Source of the DNA: Arabidopsis thaliana
Taxonomy: Eukaryota > Streptophyta > Magnoliopsida > Brassicales > Brassicaceae
Length of the DNA: 64,000 nucleotides
Assembly: GCF_000001735.4 (NCBI RefSeq)
Contig: NC_003074.8
Location: forward strand, 9,982,101-10,046,100
Reading direction: 5' to 3'
Positions within the stretch are counted from its first letter, which is position 1, and each line of letters opens with the position of its first letter. This document shows positions 7,920-29,472 of the stretch, one piece after another. A program made the position numbers and the translations under genes. The notes beneath the pieces were generated by a model, which was given only the letters and a program-made list of their open reading frames with translations, did not search any database and had not been told where the DNA came from.

Positions 7920-9307
7920 ATGGACAGCTTCTGGCAATTAGGTGATGAGCTACGAGGTCAGACGAGAGCATCAGAGGATCACAAATGGTCTACTGTTGCA
8001 ACGAAGCTAGCTGAGCAAACTAGAATGAAAGGGGAGAGGATGAACAATCTTGATCTCTCCAAAGGTTACACTGAGTTTAGACCAAGTGAGAAATTCAGTT
8101 TCCAGGAGAACAATCTTAACTTCAACATGTTGAATTTGGATGGTAAATTTGGTGAAAGCATCATGGGGAAGACTTCGATGCAGAGCAATGTTTATAATAT
8201 GAATACTGTTTTCCAGAAGAATGACTTTAAGAGTGGAGGCAACATGAAAGTTAACAAGTATAATGGTAATGTTGTTGCTAACAAGGAGATGAGCAACAAC
8301 AAACATAACAACAACTGCAATGATAATGGGAATATGAATTTGGCTGTTGACAAGAGGTTTAAAACCTTGCCTGCTTCGGAGACTCTTCCGAGGAATGAAG
8401 TTCTTGGTGGTTACATCTTTGTTTGCAACAATGATACTATGCAGGAGGATATGAAACGTCACCTCTTTGGTAATTTCCCAATACCCTTTTCTAGTGTTTT
8501 ACTGATATTCAAACTGCAAGTAAATAACTTTTTGACTTTCATCATTGTTCAGGTTTACCTCCAAGATACAGAGACTCTGTTCGAGCTATAACACCTGGAT
8601 TGCCTCTGTTTCTTTACAACTACACCACTCACCAGCTTCATGGTATCTTTGAGGTTTGTTCTCGTGCTTTTTTTTTGTCATAACAATGGTTTTGATGCTA
8701 CCATTTACTGAAAATTTGATGTTCGAATTATTCCGTGAATGATTCCTTGTTTAGGCAACAACTTTTGGAGGTACTAATATTGATGCTACTGCTTGGGAAG
8801 ACAAAAAGTGCAAAGGAGAGTCAAGGTTTCCGGCTCAGGTGAAACTTAAATCACAATGACTTTCATTGTTTTAAGTCTTTATTTTGATATCTTGTACTAA
8901 TATAACTTCTTTCTCTTAAATTGTAACAGGTAAGGATCAGAGTGAGGAAAATCTGCAAAGCCTTGGAAGAGGACTCCTTCAGGCCAGTACTTCACCACTA
9001 TGATGGTCCAAAATTCCGCCTTGAGCTCTCTGTTCCTGAGGTGCGTGTCCATATACGTTTTGTGAATGTCAGTAATAAGATAATTAAGTGAACGGAAAAT
9101 AATCTGTATTGTGTGTCATCATGTGAAAATTGGAACTTGGAAGTAATTACTCTATAAGCTAATGTGGAAACATCATATGATTATCCATGGATTTAGAGTT
9201 AGGATTGAGTAATGAACACTTTATTGAGACTGATTATGTGTTAACTATGGTGTTTGTTGTAGACATTGGATCTGCTAGATCTTTGCGAACAAGCTGGTTC
9301 TGCATAA
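7920..9307 (+). CDS. DCD (development and cell death) domain protein, N-rich (probably At3g27090)
   Basis: Five exons: 7920-8469, 8553-8653, 8755-8838, 8930-9040 and 9263-9307, giving 296 residues. The N-terminal ~160 residues are low-complexity and asparagine-rich (about residues 115-140). The C-terminal ~130 residues are a DCD domain: it opens with LGGYIFVCNNDTM, followed by LFGLPPRYRDSV, ITPGLPLFLYN, LHGIFEA, TAWEDKKCKGESRFPAQVR and a final LDLLDLCEQAG. DCD proteins are plant-specific and tied to ER and osmotic stress and programmed cell death (N-rich protein family). A leader intron is likely: a donor follows a CAA/AAC-rich tract near 7557 and an acceptor lies just before the ATG. The exact molecular role is unknown. 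Confidence 0.92.
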
Positions 9308-21100: not shown

Positions 21101-22181
21101 TTGCGCTGATTATCTGGTTTACCAATACTGTTTCCATACAATGATGTCAGTTTGGCTTGCATCATTGACTTTGGTGCTTTGGGAATCAACTTATCCGTAT
21201 CATGCCGTTCTTCCTGAAACAAGAAAACATCTATGAAATCATAGTAGAAACAGGAAGCAAGACATATAACATGGCTGTGTTTCCAAAACTCATCACCAAT
21301 ACTAAGATCATTGAAGAAATGAAGCAGTTTACAAGAGCATTACCATCTCTTTAACACCCTTTCCGTTAGATTGACTGACATGAAAACCAAAGTACTTAGA
21401 CTGCTTAATCTTTTCCACATCAAATCCACCTTTGCTGCCAAAAATTGCCCCTGGAGCTGTATTTGCAAGCTCAAACGCCTTCCTGGATACAACAAGAAGC
21501 ACACCATAAAAGGGTACTCTAAAAATCTCAAGTGTAGCTAATATTGACGATAATTCAAAAAGATCTTTAGATTTCAGCTAGTAACTAAGTGAACGAAGTC
21601 CAAAGATTAGAGAATATCACTCAGTTATACATTTCCCTGATTCCAATACCCAACAATTCAAGCCACACTCATAAGACTCTACTAAGCTAAGCAAGTAAAA
21701 TTCGAACCCTCTCTTCTTCGAAATTAAACAGGCTCAAAGGGGAAAAGCTCAGGTACCGATCCGAATCTGAAACGAGGCCTTCCAAAGCTAAATCAATCTT
21801 AGAGGCAACTTCACGACGAATGGGACCAATGAAATCACGATCGGCGTCAGTGACAGAACGAGAATCGAGGAAACCTAGAAGACGAAGCCCAAGGATCTGA
21901 GCAGAAGAGAAATCAGATTTCTCCAGGAATTTGTCGGCGCCGAAGAGCAGCGATTGGAGACGCTTCAAGTTCTCATCCACTTCCTTTCTCCAACACGGCG
22001 TCTCCGTTTCTCCTTCCTCCTTCACATTCAGAAACTCCGGTGGTGGTCTCAGTAACGGAGAAGAAAACGGCGACGAACGCTTTCCCGCCATTATCCTCTC
22101 TTCCTCTTTCCCCAAATGCCCAAAACCCCAGAAATGAAATTCAAATTCGCGCTCAGAATCTGAAACCACCGACCCACACAT
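18148..22181 (-). CDS. FIGL1: FIGL1, fidgetin-like AAA ATPase, anti-crossover factor
   Basis: AAA ATPase that regulates RAD51/DMC1 strand invasion and limits meiotic crossovers (with its partner FLIP); recalled as At3g27120. Thirteen exons, the first 22181-21757, then 21482-21344, 21213-20926, 20807-20572, 20125-19998, 19915-19797, 19711-19619, 19406-19305, 19130-19028, 18940-18857, 18766-18671, 18531-18404 and 18249-18148. From the first ATG ([10 protein letters not shown]) the protein is 680 residues; an in-frame ATG at 22091 (MAGKRSSPF) would give 650. The AAA core shows Walker A GPPGTGKT split by intron 6, Walker B VIFVDEID, and the second region of homology [16 protein letters not shown] Ser/Gly-rich linker ([19 protein letters not shown]) precedes the core, and the C-terminal VPS4/fidgetin-type helix ends GSLSL. 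Confidence 0.95.
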
Positions 22182-22386
22182 TCCTTTACTCTCTCACCAG
22201 CTTGACGCGTAGAACGTCATGCAGTGTAATAGTGTAGATAGAAACGGCGTGTAGTTTCCTTAGAAATCAGTTGCTTATCGGGCCCAGTTTCTTCATGGGC
22301 AATAGTAAGCCCGTTATTGTCTGTATTTTGGGTTTTACTGTGTTTCGGATATGCTTCCTCTAAACTTTCGTCTTTATTTTTTATAT

Positions 22387-22395
22387 TTTTACATA
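22387..22395. repeat. Left 9-bp target-site duplication of MULE-like element
   Basis: TTTTACATA lies immediately before the element end. The identical nine bases follow the right end at 26399-26407. A 9-bp duplication is the hallmark of Mutator-like transposons. Confidence 0.85.
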
Positions 22396-22926
22396 GAGAA
22401 TATTAGGCACTTAAAAATCATTAGGCACTTTGACTAATTGCAATTACTTGTTTACCCTCAAATCGTCGGTTATATATAACCAAACAAATCAAACCCATTT
22501 TCATTAAACCAATTCCGGTTACGAAACCCACGATTTTGATTTTGCAGTTACCATAATCTCTTGTTTTATTTTTTCCGGAACTGTAAAAAAAAACAAATCC
22601 AGAAAAAACCTAAACTACAGTTTCAGAAAAGGTGACTCCGACGACGGGATATCAATCTCCTCCGTTACTGTCTACCACCACTACGGTTTACACTACTTTC
22701 TTTCTTCTTCTCTCCACCGTAAAACTCCAATAATCGATTTCGTAATCTCAACCACTTTATACCCTTGTGACTTCGGCGAGGGGATATCAATCTCCTCTTT
22801 AATGGATTTGGATTTCGTTACTCTAATTCAACTTCAATTGAGTAGATTTCGAGAAAAAGTTCTTGAATTACTAAGGTAAAGTTATGTGATGTTGGGTTCT
22901 ATATTCTTTGGTTTATCCAATTTGAT

Positions 22927-23157
22927 ATGGCGTCCGCAAATATTCCTCGATTCGAATCTTCGGCGATCATAAATCTTGCACTGAATACTATGGAAGAGAA
23001 GCTACCAAGATCGCTCAAGAATCTCGACTTGAATACGAACCTTGTACCAAAGATTAAGATTCTTCTTTCAGCTTATCTATCTTCCTCACGTAAGTCTCAC
23101 TTTCAACAATTTTTTTTCTCGAGCTGGGCTAAATTTGGTGTTAAGCATGGCTGGTGA
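22927..23157 (+). other. Coding-like exon inside the MULE, unrecognised
   Basis: Opens with MASANIPRFESSAIINLALN, followed by normal amino-acid composition to about 23090, where CACGTAAGTC offers a splice donor; the rest of the ORF looks like intron. Two copies of gggatatcaatctcctc lie just upstream (about 22647 and 22783). It may be a captured exon of another host gene. I cannot name the parent. Confidence 0.3.
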
Positions 23158-24275
23158 TATTTAGGAGTTGGAATTTGACAAAGTTTTCTACTAGTTTGCT
23201 TCAATCGCTGGAATGTCTCCATTGAAATCGAAACCTCCATCTCTTGTGAGATTATGTTATTAGGAAACATTTAGAGGAAATGATTCCTTGTTTAGCTGAA
23301 ATCTATGTTATATTTCCATAAAGCGACGTTTATGTGAACAAATTTATGTGGACTTGTTATCATGGATATGTTATGGACAAATTAGTATTTGAAATTGTAA
23401 TTGACGGTTGTGTAACGGATTGTGTTATGGACTCACCATTCTCGTAACATGATTAAAGATAATGAAACGAGATTGACTATTGATAATTGTGTGTTTATTA
23501 AACTTTCGCACCGGTGAAGAGATTAGTCCCTTGAACTTGTGATTGTTTATGTTATATCTTGAGATGTTTGGTATTTAAAATCAAACTTTGACTTGTATTT
23601 AAAACTTAAAATCCAATCGAGAAGATCTAGCAGTGTTAAATGAACAGAGCTTTGTGGACAACGATATTTGGACACGTTTCTTTTTACCTTCCTCTCGTAC
23701 TTTACTTGAACTTGTCTCTAAGTTTGCTGTCAAATTATATGGCTTTTTGAGTATTTAACGTCTCGTCAATGCCAAAGTATTCATATCAAATGAACCATTT
23801 CAAGTGTATGATCCAATATAGATTAATTGAACACCAAAAAATTCATTATATGCTTCTATTTCCAATGTTGTGGTATCCATTTTGTATTGTCCATATGAAC
23901 AATGTACTTTTGCAGGTTCGGTGACCATTTTTGTATGTTGGTTTCCTCTTTTGTACCCAAAATAGTTTCCATCGACTATTAACTCAAAAAACTATTTTTT
24001 CAATCTCTTTTTTTCAATAATTTTGGGTTTTGGTTATCCTTATAAATCATAACTATTCTTCAATTTGTAATTGATCCGTACAAGTATAACTATATATGGT
24101 CAACACGAAATGGTCGCTTGTGGATGGCTACTTGTAAAGTGTTAGAGTATACTTTGAGACCTGAGATGCACATCAAGAAACTTGGTTACATATCATTGTT
24201 ACTTAACTGTCTATACACATGTGGATAAATGGTCATAATGGATAATGTACTTTGGATTGACGTTTATTGTTCCTC

Positions 24276-24435
24276 GTATAAACTTATGTATTAGTATGAA
24301 ACTACCATGTGAGTTATTAGATGACCATATGGACTAGACTGCTTGGATAGTTTCTTGTTCATGTATAAACTTATGTATTAGTATGAAACTACCATGTGAG
24401 TCACTAGATAACCATATGGACTGGACTTCTTGGAC
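24276..24435. repeat. Two-copy tandem repeat, period 87
   Basis: The block starting gtataaacttatgtattagt recurs at 24363 with few changes over about 72 bases; the copies are 87 bp apart. It lies inside the MULE-like element. Confidence 0.8.
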
Positions 24436-24779
24436 ATTCATTAATGGACAAGTATGTCTTTGATTTGCTGCGAATGTGTTTATAGCTCGATAAAATTAAC
24501 ACTTTTTTGTTTGCTCATTCAACATTAACATTGGAGTCCAACTCGATCAAATTCTTAGCACCATCATAAAGCTCAATGTTTATACCAGACAAGATCAACA
24601 TAAGCCACATTGAGTTTAGCTTTGTTCACTCAATTTTTTTTTTGCCGTCTGGTATAATATTAATTGAAAAGTCAAAACAGAGTATAGAGCATACATCCAT
24701 AAAAAAACAGAGCATGAAAACTCCAAACAATAACCAAAGGTAAAGAAAAAAAAAATCCAAAGGTAAAGAAAAGAAAATT

Positions 24780-24985
24780 TCACAAAGTCATCATCGCTTG
24801 TCTTCTTCAATTCTGGAAAGTAACCATCCAGGGCCTCCTCTAGCTAAATAAGATCTGAAACGACCATCCCTTGTCACACTTATAGCAATGTCCCTTGCTA
24901 TTGAATTCGCCTTTGAGGATGAAACCTTGAAAATGACTCGAAAAAACCTGGGAATGAGTGAATTAAGTAAAACAAAAGGACTAAA
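24780..24985 (-). other. Second possible captured fragment downstream of the PP2C remnant
   Basis: The minus strand here reads as ordinary protein (KANSIARDIAISVTRDGRF, then YLARGGPGWLLSRIEEDKR and stop) and is not part of any PP2C I know. An acceptor-like tract precedes it. It may be an exon from a different gene joined to the PP2C inside the element, or the natural 3' part of a chimeric transcript. Parent not recognised. Confidence 0.35.
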
Positions 24986-26074
24986 TCATAGAAATTCTAA
25001 TGTCATATATCTAACATCTTCTAAGATGCCTCTCTTTTCTATACGAACTGGCCGCAATGGGATCAACATCACACTGATATCATCAAACGAGCCTCGTGAA
25101 GCCGAGAGATCAACAAGCTTCTTACAAGCTGCTAACAACAATGGCTTCTCGGTTCGTAAGCAGAAGGGACGAGCAATGTCTACTGCTTCTTGGTTACTCA
25201 CCTTATCCCATAAACCATGTGATGCCAAGATTAAGAACTCATGGTCATGCTCAACTCTCGAGATCTTTGTCTCTGGTTCAGCTATAACCCATTTCTTAAG
25301 TTGAGCATCTCCGATTCCTCTTGGCACAACTAAGGATCCCTGGATTCTCCACAACGTGAAACATATCAACATATCCTCCCGTGGTTTCAATTCTTTTCCG
25401 TTCATCATCTCTAGACGGACAATGATCAGAAAATAAAACTTTAGCTACACCTCCTACACTCATAACAGCACGACAGTCACCGGCGTTTGACACAACAAGG
25501 CTCCCTTCGCTAACCAAAGCCGTGACACAGGATGAACCACCCTTAAAACCTTCCTCCTTAAGAAACGTTGTGTCTGTAGTCAAGTAACTACGTTTCCACC
25601 GCTTCAGCTATCTCCAACTCGTGTCTTTTACCAACTACTTCTTCTACAATGTTCTTATCTAAGTTCTTAGCTGGACACTCAGCCGCTTTAACTCCTCCAT
25701 GACCAACATAGACTCCAAATATTGCCTGCAAATTATCACAAAGCAAAACAACGTTTAGAATACACAATACATAAAGATTCATCAATAACTACACAATTGT
25801 ATCAAATGATTCTGTAAAACTTCTAATTCTATTCATAATTTCAATTTTCCCCAAACAACATCATGAAGAATCCTAATTTTAGATAGCTTATTAATCCAAT
25901 CAATGTAGATCTCACATGATAAACCCTAATTTGAGCTGTAATTGCTAATCAATTGAATCAAAATCTCCAATTCGATTCAATTCTAAACCTAAATTGAAAA
26001 ATGAATTTGAAATTTGAAATTACCTGTTTACGATCTCCATGAAGATTGGTGATAGTGGAGAACCGATCCTCCAT
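24986..26074 (-). pseudogene. Group-B (AP2C-like) protein phosphatase 2C, broken (probably At3g27140)
   Basis: A PP2C remnant: exon 1 26074-26024 (MEDRFSTITNLHGDRKQ), exon 2 from 25725. The first frame ends in a stop near 25587 just after IAEAVET. The next segment ([52 protein letters not shown]) is in another frame, and a third frame resumes near 25355 with [20 protein letters not shown] and ends SFDDISVMLI plus a tail. Two single-base shifts therefore break it. Metal-binding sites are also lost: the usual DGHGG reads VGHGG and the usual DGLWD reads HGLWD, so even a full-length product should be inactive. It lies wholly inside the MULE-like element. It is commonly annotated as a gene; the annotation would need introns to skip the breaks. 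Confidence 0.8.
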
Positions 26075-26398
26075 AAGAATTTGATTTTAGAGATGAAGAG
26101 CGACACTATATATTATTTATTTTAAAAAAATATCCATTTATTTGCTGTAATTGTGAGATTACTCCCTTTCTCATGTCGAGATCTCAACCGGCACGAAATA
26201 GAAAGAACATGTATTACACGTGTGTTTTATTAGATAACACAGCAAAACCAATCGAACTGGTTAAGCAATTTATGGTTTAATTTTGAAAGGATATAATTGT
26301 CCTTTTATCTTCTAGAAATAAGGAAAAGTGTCTGAACCTTAGAAAGTGCCTCAAACGTAAAAAGATTTTCTAAAAGTGCCTAATAGTGTAACATTCCC

Positions 26399-26407
26399 TT
26401 TTACATA
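26399..26407. repeat. Right 9-bp target-site duplication of MULE-like element
   Basis: TTTTACATA, identical to 22387-22395, directly after the CCC that ends the element. Confidence 0.85.
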
Positions 26408-27591
26408 TTAATTACTTCTTTTAAATAAATTAATGTATAAAAATCTATTTTAAATCACTCATTTTTTCTTAAAATTTGGATTAGTTATCTTATAATTTAA
26501 TTCACATTATCACCAAATTTTAGCAAAAATCAAAATACAGTTTTATGTTATTATAAAATAAAATATATCTATTATCTGACAGAAGACTCTCCATATATAT
26601 TGGATTACATATACTTAATTTTTCTTAATTATTCTTTTTATCTTAATATCTAGAATCTATTTTTTTATTCCATTAACACCACTATCAAGAAGCTAAACTT
26701 TCTCAATATTTGAATATATAATTCAAATTTTTGGGTATATATAGTGATTTATTTTGCCAATTCATTGTAAAAATATGTTTTGTAACAACGATGCCGACTT
26801 GCTTTGTTGCATCCAATCTTAAGCCTCACATTACAGTCTAATAGAAACAACACCATCGCACATTAGTAGTAGAAGTATGTTGCATAACAAAACTGCAAAT
26901 ACATGAGAATATTACACAACGAATAATAGTGTAAAATGCTGCATCTTCACGAAGAGTTTTGGTTTTAGATAAATATCACATTTTCCCCTTTATTCGAGTC
27001 ACTTATCATCTCATTTGAGCTATATTTTCTAAAATTAAAATCCATTAAGCTTTTGAGGTAGTTTTAGATTTTGTAGATTCTGTTTTTTAGCCTCTCAAGA
27101 ATTTGGAAATTAGTTTCCCTAAAAATTCGGAAATTAGTTTTCTAAAAATTTAACCCATTTAAAAAAAACATTTTATTTGATCCATTTAAAAAATCTAAAT
27201 TCTCTAGCAAAAAGAAACCAAACTAAAACTAAGGATGTTTTTGTTTTCTCAAGTTCATATATGATTTTTTTAAATCACTAAGGATTTCTAAAGCAATAAA
27301 TTAACTAAAATTTTTGAACTAATAACTACCAAGTTTTCGATATATAAACAATTCTAATTGAATTGAAACAAGCTCATTCGATTTAGACAGATTGTTTCGA
27401 ATTATTCAGATATAACAACCTTTCTTATTTTTAACACAATCTTGCAAAAGCTTAAGATATATCACAAAATGAGCAATCACTAGCGTTCACCAAAAACTCA
27501 AGATAGACTCTGAATCAGAAGATAACCCACAATAGCACCGTTCTATTCAATCACACACACACAAAACCACAGCTTCGCAAAGTTTTTGCCC
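26408..27591. other. AT-rich spacer
   Basis: No gene seen. The segment nearest 27591 is the likely 3' UTR of the kelch F-box gene on the minus strand. Confidence 0.5.
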
Positions 27592-28860
27592 TTACGCAAT
27601 CATTACACAACAGTTTAGGATAAAATGATTGAACCTAACGCCACAGCAACGTTTAGACTCCTCCCAATACAGCTTGTTCGCAGGATTTGCGGATGGACGG
27701 CTCGTGTAAACCGACATTGTCTCGGCCCTAGACGGACCGGCTGATGCTCCAATCACAAGCAACTTATCTCCAAGTGACTTAAACGCAACGCCCCATCCTC
27801 CATTAGACTTAGCCCTCACGGGCACATCTCCAAGCTTCTTCCAAGAGTTTGCATTTGCATCATAAACGCGGAGCTCGTTCGCCGAGGTTTCCAATGAGTA
27901 AAGATCATCCCCAACCACTGCGATGAGCGGTGGAGATTGGACAGAAGAGAAAGACATGTCTTTGAGAATGTCCGGTATGAGTTCCCATGTGTTCGTCTTC
28001 TCGTCGTAACTTTCTCCGCAAGTTAGGTTTTGACCATTCTCATCCCGGCCTCCGAGAACATAAAACTTGCCACGCAAGTAACACCCAGAGCAGAATTTCC
28101 GCCGCTTATGCATTCCGCGTAGAAGCGTCCACGTTTTGGTCTTAGAGTCATACTTCTCAACGCTGTCCACAACTTCCATGGTCCCGTTTCCTTCAATTTT
28201 CAACCCACCAGCTACAAACACAACAGTCCCACAAGTAGCAGAAGCAAACAAGATTCGCGGTGTGATCATCGCGGGACCTTTGAACCATTTGCTCGTCTCC
28301 AACTCGTACCGCCATAGCGCAATGCTCTTCTCCTCTTTCCCAGTGACAATCAAATGAGTTCCAGCGCAAAGCGATTCTTTATCTCCATGGAGGAAGCATA
28401 TGTCAGAAGGAAGTTCCGGAAGCTTCTGGCAGTTCCCAAAGCCCTTGTCAAACATCGTCCAACACGTATCACCACTCGACAACATAAAGACAGACGGTTC
28501 AACTACACCGCGCTCGCGCCTCACCTTGAAAATCTCATCACTCTTTAGCAAACGCGAAAACCCCTTATTAAGTAACTTTAGTTTCCAATACTCGAAACGC
28601 GGCACGCGTGCGAGTATCTCGACCTCTAACTCGTATACGAGCTGAGGAACATTTAGTAAACAATAATCTGCATCCTTAGGTTTCAAACATGTACTGCTCA
28701 GAGCCTTAGTGGCCTCCCCTGTTTCTTCCCCATCCCAATCCAAACTAGGTTCTACGTTTAGATCAGGAATCTCGTAGCGATGAACCCGAAGCTTCTTCGA
28801 CCTAGACCAGCTAGAGCTTGCCCCAATTCTACCGATTTGATCTTCTCCTAGCGTCAACAT
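27592..28860 (-). CDS. HOLT: Kelch-repeat F-box protein, miR2111 target, legume TML homologue (At3g27150)
   Basis: Single-exon CDS of 422 residues. An F-box-like segment lies at about residues 70-115 (VPQLVYELEVEILARVPRFEYWKLKLLNK, shown here only as landmarks), followed by kelch repeats (FVAGGLKIEGNGTMEVVDSV, FYVLGGRDENG, ANSWKKLGDVPVR). Such proteins are substrate adaptors of SCF ubiquitin ligases. Its legume homologue TML restrains nodulation, and the Arabidopsis gene, recalled as HOLT, restrains lateral-root formation under shoot-derived miR2111. The miR2111 site lies in the coding sequence (28664-28684). A leader intron is likely (acceptor TTTACAG at about 28905, donor CCGT/GTAAGT at about 29472). 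The gene is isolated, with AT-rich spacers on both sides. Confidence 0.93.
   Translation of the reverse strand: MLTLGEDQIGRIGASSSWSRSKKLRVHRYEIPDLNVEPSLDWDGEETGEATKALSSTCLKPKDADYCLLNVPQLVYELEVEILARVPRFEYWKLKLLNKGFSRLLKSDEIFKVRRERGVVEPSVFMLSSGDTCWTMFDKGFGNCQKLPELPSDICFLHGDKESLCAGTHLIVTGKEEKSIALWRYELETSKWFKGPAMITPRILFASATCGTVVFVAGGLKIEGNGTMEVVDSVEKYDSKTKTWTLLRGMHKRRKFCSGCYLRGKFYVLGGRDENGQNLTCGESYDEKTNTWELIPDILKDMSFSSVQSPPLIAVVGDDLYSLETSANELRVYDANANSWKKLGDVPVRAKSNGGWGVAFKSLGDKLLVIGASAGPSRAETMSVYTSRPSANPANKLYWEESKRCCGVRFNHFILNCCVMIA
28664..28684 (-). promoter_or_regulatory. miR2111 target site within the F-box kelch CDS
   Basis: The plus strand here reads TAATCTGCATCCTTAGGTTT plus C, nearly the mature miR2111 (recalled as UAAUCUGCAUCCUGAGGUUU plus A), so the minus-strand mRNA is complementary with mismatches only at positions 14 and 21. 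Bases 2-13, including the 10/11 cleavage point, pair perfectly. Confidence 0.9.
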
Positions 28861-28904
28861 CTCTATGTAAAATCCTGGCCTAGTGCACTTTTGACATTCC
28901 CTCT

Positions 28905-29472
28905 CTGTAAATTTTTAGCCCAAAACTAAATCAGAATCAAACAGTAACAATCATTTATTGAAACAGTGAACTAAAGATTAAAAATTGCAAACTAAATCAG
29001 AATCAAATAAAGCATATTCAGATTTCTATTTCAGTAATTTTTTCTTTCGTACTGAAACAACAAAGATCGTAACCTTTTTTTAGATGGAATCATGGAACAG
29101 AAAGAAAAAAAGATTCAATAGTGAACTAATTAAGTCTAACAAATTTGATTTGTAAGTAATTGAAATCCTTAACAGAATATTTTTAATCGAATCCAATTCA
29201 ATAAGATTACTGCCTTACTGGTTATGTTTATAAACAATTTCACTTCCCTGGAAAAAAAATAAAGACAATTTATTGTCGCTAATCCGAGTTGATTAGAATG
29301 ATTTGACTAAATTAAAACAGTCAACTAGGGATTATAGATTGCAAACCCTAAAATCAACGGTCAACGAGTGAAAACACATAAATATGTTTGACTAAATTAC
29401 TGAAGAACAAATAGATTACAAAACAATTTTATTGAACCCTAAAAACTGGTCAAAAGTCAAAGAGAAACTTAC
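28905..29472 (-). other. Probable 5' UTR intron of the kelch F-box gene
   Basis: Minus-strand donor GT|GTAAGT-like at 29472 and acceptor TTTACAG ending at 28905, 45 bases before the ATG. The upstream leader is a GAA-rich tract (29520-29585). Inferred from splice-site quality only. Confidence 0.5.

Follow-up and report, generated by a model that had tools for sequence, protein, structure and literature searches.

The closest described systems to the locus presented here are the Pack-MULEs, of which 46 have been counted in Arabidopsis, in a source that ascribes long terminal inverted repeats to the majority of MULEs (PMC3310237). MULEs with degenerate repeats are also known in Arabidopsis (PMC10398659). 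AT3G27140 has been counted among 80 Arabidopsis PP2C genes, with a protein of 245 aa, 26,567 Da and a pI of 8.2286; it was described as being without expression evidence and as a locus that 'might be a pseudogene' (PMC2612031). In the literature naming AT3G27140 that was covered by our search, outside of which most subscription papers fell, the locus was not called a transposon. Here we analysed a window of 64,000 nucleotides of Arabidopsis thaliana, the whole stretch of DNA under study (contig NC_003074.8, positions 9,982,101 to 10,046,100), in which an initial annotation had proposed a Pack-MULE with AT3G27140 as its cargo. We concluded that the element is a non-autonomous, multi-copy Pack-MULE, and the full explanation, including capture, decay and mobilisation in trans, is given a probability of about 0.94. 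The element may already be contained in the original Arabidopsis Pack-MULE list; its coordinates were absent from the eleven multiple-repeat Arabidopsis elements given in PMC3310237. Its features are as follows.

22387-22395, unstranded: target site duplication, left copy, TTTTACATA
22396-22730, plus strand: left end of the MULE, 79-80% identity to five short relatives
22931-23317, plus strand: captured piece A, 77% identity to C4:13550284-13550704
23527-23747, plus strand: minisatellite-type backbone block, about 79-85% identity to other MULE loci
24195-24598, plus strand: second minisatellite backbone block, with an 87-bp unit present twice here and a 216-bp unit in L042
24546-24557, plus strand: backbone string ATCAAATTCTTA, with an inverted copy at 26074-26085
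24586-24630, minus strand: 3' flank of AT2G30020 at the capture edge, its first bases entered by backbone common with L008
24634-24957, minus strand: 3' end of a LINE, 5'-truncated, ending in poly(A) and inserted within the PP2C part
24953-26075, minus strand: PP2C part, comprising the end of exon 1, the intron, exon 2 and the 3' region of AT2G30020, 89% identity
26074-26085, minus strand: inverted copy of the 12-bp backbone string at the PP2C capture junction
26145-26398, plus strand: right end of the MULE, common to other elements, with the minus-strand terminal GGGAATGTTACACTATTAGGCACTTTT
26399-26407, unstranded: target site duplication, right copy, TTTTACATA

The chromosome 3 element covers 22396-26398 (4,003 bp) and is bordered on either side by the identical 9-bp TTTTACATA, so that the block and the perfect duplication proposed initially were both verified. 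The two copies abut GAGAAT... on the left and ...ATTCCC on the right without intervening bases. Identical 9-mers at a similar spacing were found in 21 of 1,739,797 position pairs of the window, corresponding to a chance of 1.2e-5, and the composition of the flanks gave a chance of 2.2e-5 for the TTTTACATA duplication. Inverted ATTAGGCACTT had also been noted at the ends. Its 12-bp arms (22401-22412/26374-26385 and 22420-22431/26373-26384) are real; the position of the inner copy beside the left end is secondary, because the window copy is without 38 bp of the family left end, after GAGAATATTA and between two ATTA motifs. The relatives show GAGAATATTACGTGATTAGACACTTTT as the family's left terminus, and in the family terminal repeat 21 of 27 bases pair. 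Its left end being shortened, the window copy may itself be immobile. Outside the element, a minus-strand reading frame was present at 21687-22193, the element lying approx. 200 bp from its 5' side, and to the right a frame at 27592-28914 appeared kelch/F-box-like by eye.

Other copies with the same termini, as anticipated in the initial annotation, were found in the genome. Five short relatives, L037-L041 (2,440, 1,422, 2,432, 2,432 and 2,414 bp), had both ends in common with the window element, and all five had a perfect 9-bp duplication of their own. The same ends were present in L042, an element of 7.9 kb with TACATTTAA duplicated at its borders. Matching right ends were detected in L043-L049 and L052 too, left ends and duplications having been examined for L037-L042. 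The terminus pattern, with up to two mismatches, occurred at 132 places in the genome, against a single place for the reversed control.

No transposase was detected in the window element, in agreement with the initial annotation: of 58 stop-to-stop frames of at least 35 aa within 22300-26500, five, one of them over part of its length, were submitted to Pfam, and PP2C alone passed the cut-off. Apart from a few short matches at chance level, only the ends and the minisatellite aligned with the transposase-bearing L042 in the same orientation. L042, the one scanned among the six related elements described below, contained the Pfam domains DBD_Tnp_Mut, MULE and SWIM, spread over three overlapping frames. 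As to a relation with the VANA/VANC genes, the frame at L042:2232-2522 gave no Pfam match; we presume that it resembles a DUF1985 frame. Likewise, a frame in L043, L046 and L052 that looked FHA-like by eye gave no Pfam match. Beside the same minisatellite, L008 contained at 588-1112 a protein kinase fragment (Pfam PK_Tyr_Ser-Thr), perhaps another captured gene.

A search of the genome with the whole element returned at least 96 matching pieces, and the PP2C cargo was present in two further places, C2:1793706-1797729 (98%) and C4:5200519-5203603 (97%). Substitutions were counted at 55 of 4,022 sites between the chromosome 3 and chromosome 2 copies, at 109 of 3,165 between those on chromosomes 3 and 4, and at 110 of 3,198 between those on chromosomes 2 and 4. 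The chromosome 2 copy, which we guess to be AT2G05050, ends in a T tract, so that no limits could be set to its duplication, and the first base of its left end is a different one. The chromosome 4 copy is 5'-truncated: its first 929 bases are gone, and it has neither a left end nor a duplication of its own. It is nested in L051 (C4:5200474-5204009), another MULE of 3,536 bp with the 9-bp duplication TTAAAAATA. With a divergence of 1.4% and a substitution rate of 7e-9, the copies on chromosomes 3 and 2 would be roughly 1 million years apart.

The parent of the PP2C part is AT2G30020, which we take to be AP2C1. Splicing it from two exons gave a protein of 396 aa and 42,419.5 Da, compared with 396 aa and 42,420 Da published for AT2G30020, and the outgroup AT1G07160 gave 380 aa and 40,708.7 Da, compared with 40,709 (PMC2612031). 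The window piece differed from the parent at 88 of 1,084 aligned sites (8.1%), with 2 to 10 differences per 75 aligned sites, and of the 1,505 21-mers of 24556-26080, 237 were identical to the parent locus. The intron of AT2G30020 is retained in the cargo, and a PP2C parent with an intron elsewhere in the genome had indeed been predicted. Ends of the same MULE family were located near AT2G30020, a left one at C2:12811692 and a right one at approx. C2:12813045 (L036 1-546), where the match stops 3 bases before the terminus. The captured part is approx. 1.8 kb away from the nearer of the two. Within 5 kb, about 0.012 such ends would be expected, a figure that was computed after seeing them. Capture by bypass of these ends was considered; their orientation does not yield the observed order, and it remains a lead.

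Piece A came from a different parent, by which the suspected chimera of different parents was confirmed. Its counterpart at C4:13550284-13550704 is a 5' gene region with a 71-aa frame containing MEEKLP... and a frame starting MSPLKSKPPS..., and Pfam domains of aconitase and ataxin-2 were found in frames nearby. We tentatively take this parent to be AT4G26980, with whose neighbourhood the aconitase and ataxin-2 domains agree. The frame 22867-23157 of the element is open; the part of it at 22924-23157 gave no Pfam family above the cut-off. A further stretch, 24780-24985, had initially been taken for another captured exon. This reading was abandoned, since the stretch belongs to the 3' end of a truncated LINE with 72% identity to the 3' end of L034. 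Both sequences terminate in CAGACGGC followed by poly(A), and upstream frames of L034 match zf-RVT and RVT_3. All three copies contain the LINE, which replaces approx. 20 bp of the parent and for which we recognised no target duplication.

The PP2C frame is broken in each of the three copies by a 1-bp insertion bringing a stop and by a frame-shifting 2-bp deletion. In all three, DGHGG is changed to VGHGG and SDGLWD to SHGLWD, by which two conserved aspartates are gone; the aspartates of these PP2C motifs bind metal. As these lesions are common to the three copies, we concluded that the cargo was broken before the copies parted. The window copy has one extra 1-bp insertion, and two PP2C frames still match Pfam significantly. 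For 227 codons without gaps or stops the window copy and the parent gave a dN of 0.058 and a dS of 0.220. The intron differed at 14 of 274 sites (5%), below the divergence of the synonymous sites (Fisher p 1.6e-5), and the age of the capture is uncertain because of this disagreement between a dS of 0.22 and an intron divergence of 5%. Where all three copies have an identical codon, the changes assigned to the element branch were 17 nonsynonymous and 11 synonymous, and those assigned to the parent branch 5 and 10. The nonsynonymous changes on the element branch were fewer than predicted from site counts (one-sided p 0.037, ignoring mutational bias), and a functional phase of the PP2C cargo preceding its decay is conceivable.

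Splice models were compared with the published AT3G27140 protein. Models with up to two introns gave no candidates, and the parental intron together with up to two more gave six, the best being 591 Da off. With the parental intron as the first and three further introns, under limits imposed on exon and intron length, 947 candidates of 245 aa were obtained. The best had 26,566.2 Da and a pI of 8.26, compared with the published 26,567 and 8.23 (PMC2612031), and the next-best were 20 and 25 Da off. Its exons are given below.

26074-26024, 25725-25600, 25541-25440, 25339-25016 and 24925-24791, minus strand: exons of the best AT3G27140 model, fitted by length, mass and pI

The two frame lesions common to the copies are skipped by introns of this model, and the three best models all end in the exon 24925-24791, which consists of LINE sequence. 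Judged by length, mass and pI, the C-terminus of the published AT3G27140 protein appears to be encoded by the LINE. For AT4G08260, models with up to two introns gave one candidate, 740 Da off. The best of 69 candidates from the chromosome 4 copy matched in mass (23,322.7 Da compared with 23,323) and poorly in pI (6.09 compared with 6.51) (PMC2612031); by our estimate approx. one in 20 such trials would reach this mass fit by chance. Transcript evidence from mixed tissue has been given for AT4G08260 (PMC2612031), and the ATH1 probe set 266834_s_at is assigned jointly to At2g30020, At3g27140 and At4g08260 (PMC3645707), a further link between the three loci. Cross-hybridisation could be the source of the AT4G08260 transcript signal. 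Since cargo and termini were copied together and the lesions are present in all copies, we concluded, as the initial annotation had suggested, that AT3G27140 is transposon cargo and no functional phosphatase gene. The same is very probably true for AT4G08260.

A second set of elements carries the other part of the same host exon. In six related elements (L042, L048/L013, L009, L010, L014 and L015), AT2G30020 exon 1 is represented by its 5' part, positions 2049 or 2169 to 2391 of the parent locus L036 (BLAST reaches 2397), and the window lineage continues from 2390 onward; in L042 the piece lies at 8782-9122. The divergence of the 5' pieces from the parent was 8.4 to 11%. The 5' piece occupies the same slot as the PP2C part of the window element, with the minisatellite on one side and the right end on the other, and has the same orientation; within a stretch of 1.5 kb the breakpoints of both pieces overlap by 2 bp. 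At the L042-type junction, 11 bp of parental exon 1 are present in a second copy, and the window junction has the 12-bp backbone string in a second, inverted copy. Such templated fillers at the junctions suggest template switching during repair. Both AT2G30020 pieces together were found in none of the related loci compared.

We tentatively propose, at a little short of an even chance, that one MULE, perhaps transposase-bearing, captured a contiguous AT2G30020 stretch of at least 1.5 kb, of which its descendants kept complementary pieces, split at one point with templated fillers: the 5' part of the exon in a lineage to which the transposase-bearing L042 belongs, and the end of exon 1, the intron and exon 2 in a Pack-MULE lineage. 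The pieces may also have been captured independently in two MULE lineages, the breakpoint being coincidental or the site fragile. This is a serious possibility that we place somewhat below even odds: the missing both-piece element and the separate filler at each junction speak for it, whereas the identical slot and orientation, the similar divergence from the parent (8.4-11% compared with 8.1%, 88/1,084) and the overlap of just 2 bp in 1.5 kb speak for the single capture. More generally, the PP2C sequence might be a resident, once functional gene lying by chance between MULE-like ends, or segmentally duplicated here, as its two significant Pfam matches and its place among the 80 Arabidopsis PP2C genes (PMC2612031) could suggest. 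This explanation is hardly credible, because the window and chromosome 2 copies match end to end, cargo plus termini, the chromosome 4 copy matches from base 930 onward up to the right end, a 9-bp duplication forms the boundary, and the lesions recur in all three copies. The cargo might instead be functional, either through small RNAs or transcripts regulating AT2G30020 in trans or through a chimeric peptide. The 237 of 1,505 21-mers identical to the parent, the open frame 22867-23157 and the AT4G08260 transcript evidence (PMC2612031) are in line with this. It is nonetheless very improbable, given the lesions shared by 3/3 copies and an AT3G27140 without expression evidence, for which a pseudogene was suggested by the authors themselves (PMC2612031).

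The Pack-MULE reading can be arranged as a history. A break in a MULE would have been repaired by copying ectopic gene DNA, probably by template switching. In this way the MULE would have taken up genomic DNA from two or more loci of the host, a part of AT2G30020 with its intron and the 5' gene region on chromosome 4. A LINE would then have landed in the PP2C part, capture probably preceding this insertion, and by the time the three copies parted, the PP2C had lost its frame along with two conserved aspartates. Given the transposase domains of L042 and its matching ends, transposase from L042-like elements presumably moved the element in trans, giving rise to the copies on chromosomes 3, 2 and 4.

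Arabidopsis PP2C gene lists thereby lose one entry, AT3G27140, and probably a second, AT4G08260. The joint assignment of probe set 266834_s_at (PMC3645707) is explained, and a stress signal there would most simply come from AT2G30020. Beyond the corrected gene list, the locus is a record of how transposons pick up genes, and two MULE lineages that hold complementary parts of a single host gene provide a testable case for gene uptake. If the single capture is true, the pair would record both a template-switch capture and the budding of a Pack-MULE from a transposase-bearing element.

The assignment as a MULE is based on the 9-bp target duplication and on termini common with elements bearing a MuDR-type transposase, as seen in the ends and domains of L042. 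For a Pack-MULE, as initially read, speak the host sequence with its intron, the parent elsewhere, the two-parent chimera and the absence of a detected transposase. The repeats of approx. 27 bp, 21 identical, do not place the element in the long-terminal-repeat subgroup, and it was not filed there. Neither of the two published VANC21 and VANC6 motifs was matched in the element (0 matches), and it was not filed with VANDAL by these motifs; other VANC proteins may have different motifs.

Like the Pack-MULEs of PMC3310237, the window element has MULE ends, a target duplication, fragments of more than one parent, no detected transposase and several copies. Unlike them, it has short imperfect repeats (21/27) instead of long ones, a nested LINE, and a transposase-bearing relative that holds the complementary piece of the captured gene. 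It resembles the VANDAL/VANC MULEs in its degenerate terminal repeats and non-coding tandem repeats (PMC5735166, PMC10398659). With the animal Pack-TIR elements, for which template switching has been proposed, it shares gene capture with distinct target duplications in multi-copy cases, and it differs from them in being a plant MULE (PMC8277862). The same paper describes the parents of Pack-MULEs as unlinked with MULEs, whereas the parent here has ends of the same family approx. 1.8 kb away (PMC8277862). The kind of element is thus known, a Pack-MULE, and its detail is new.
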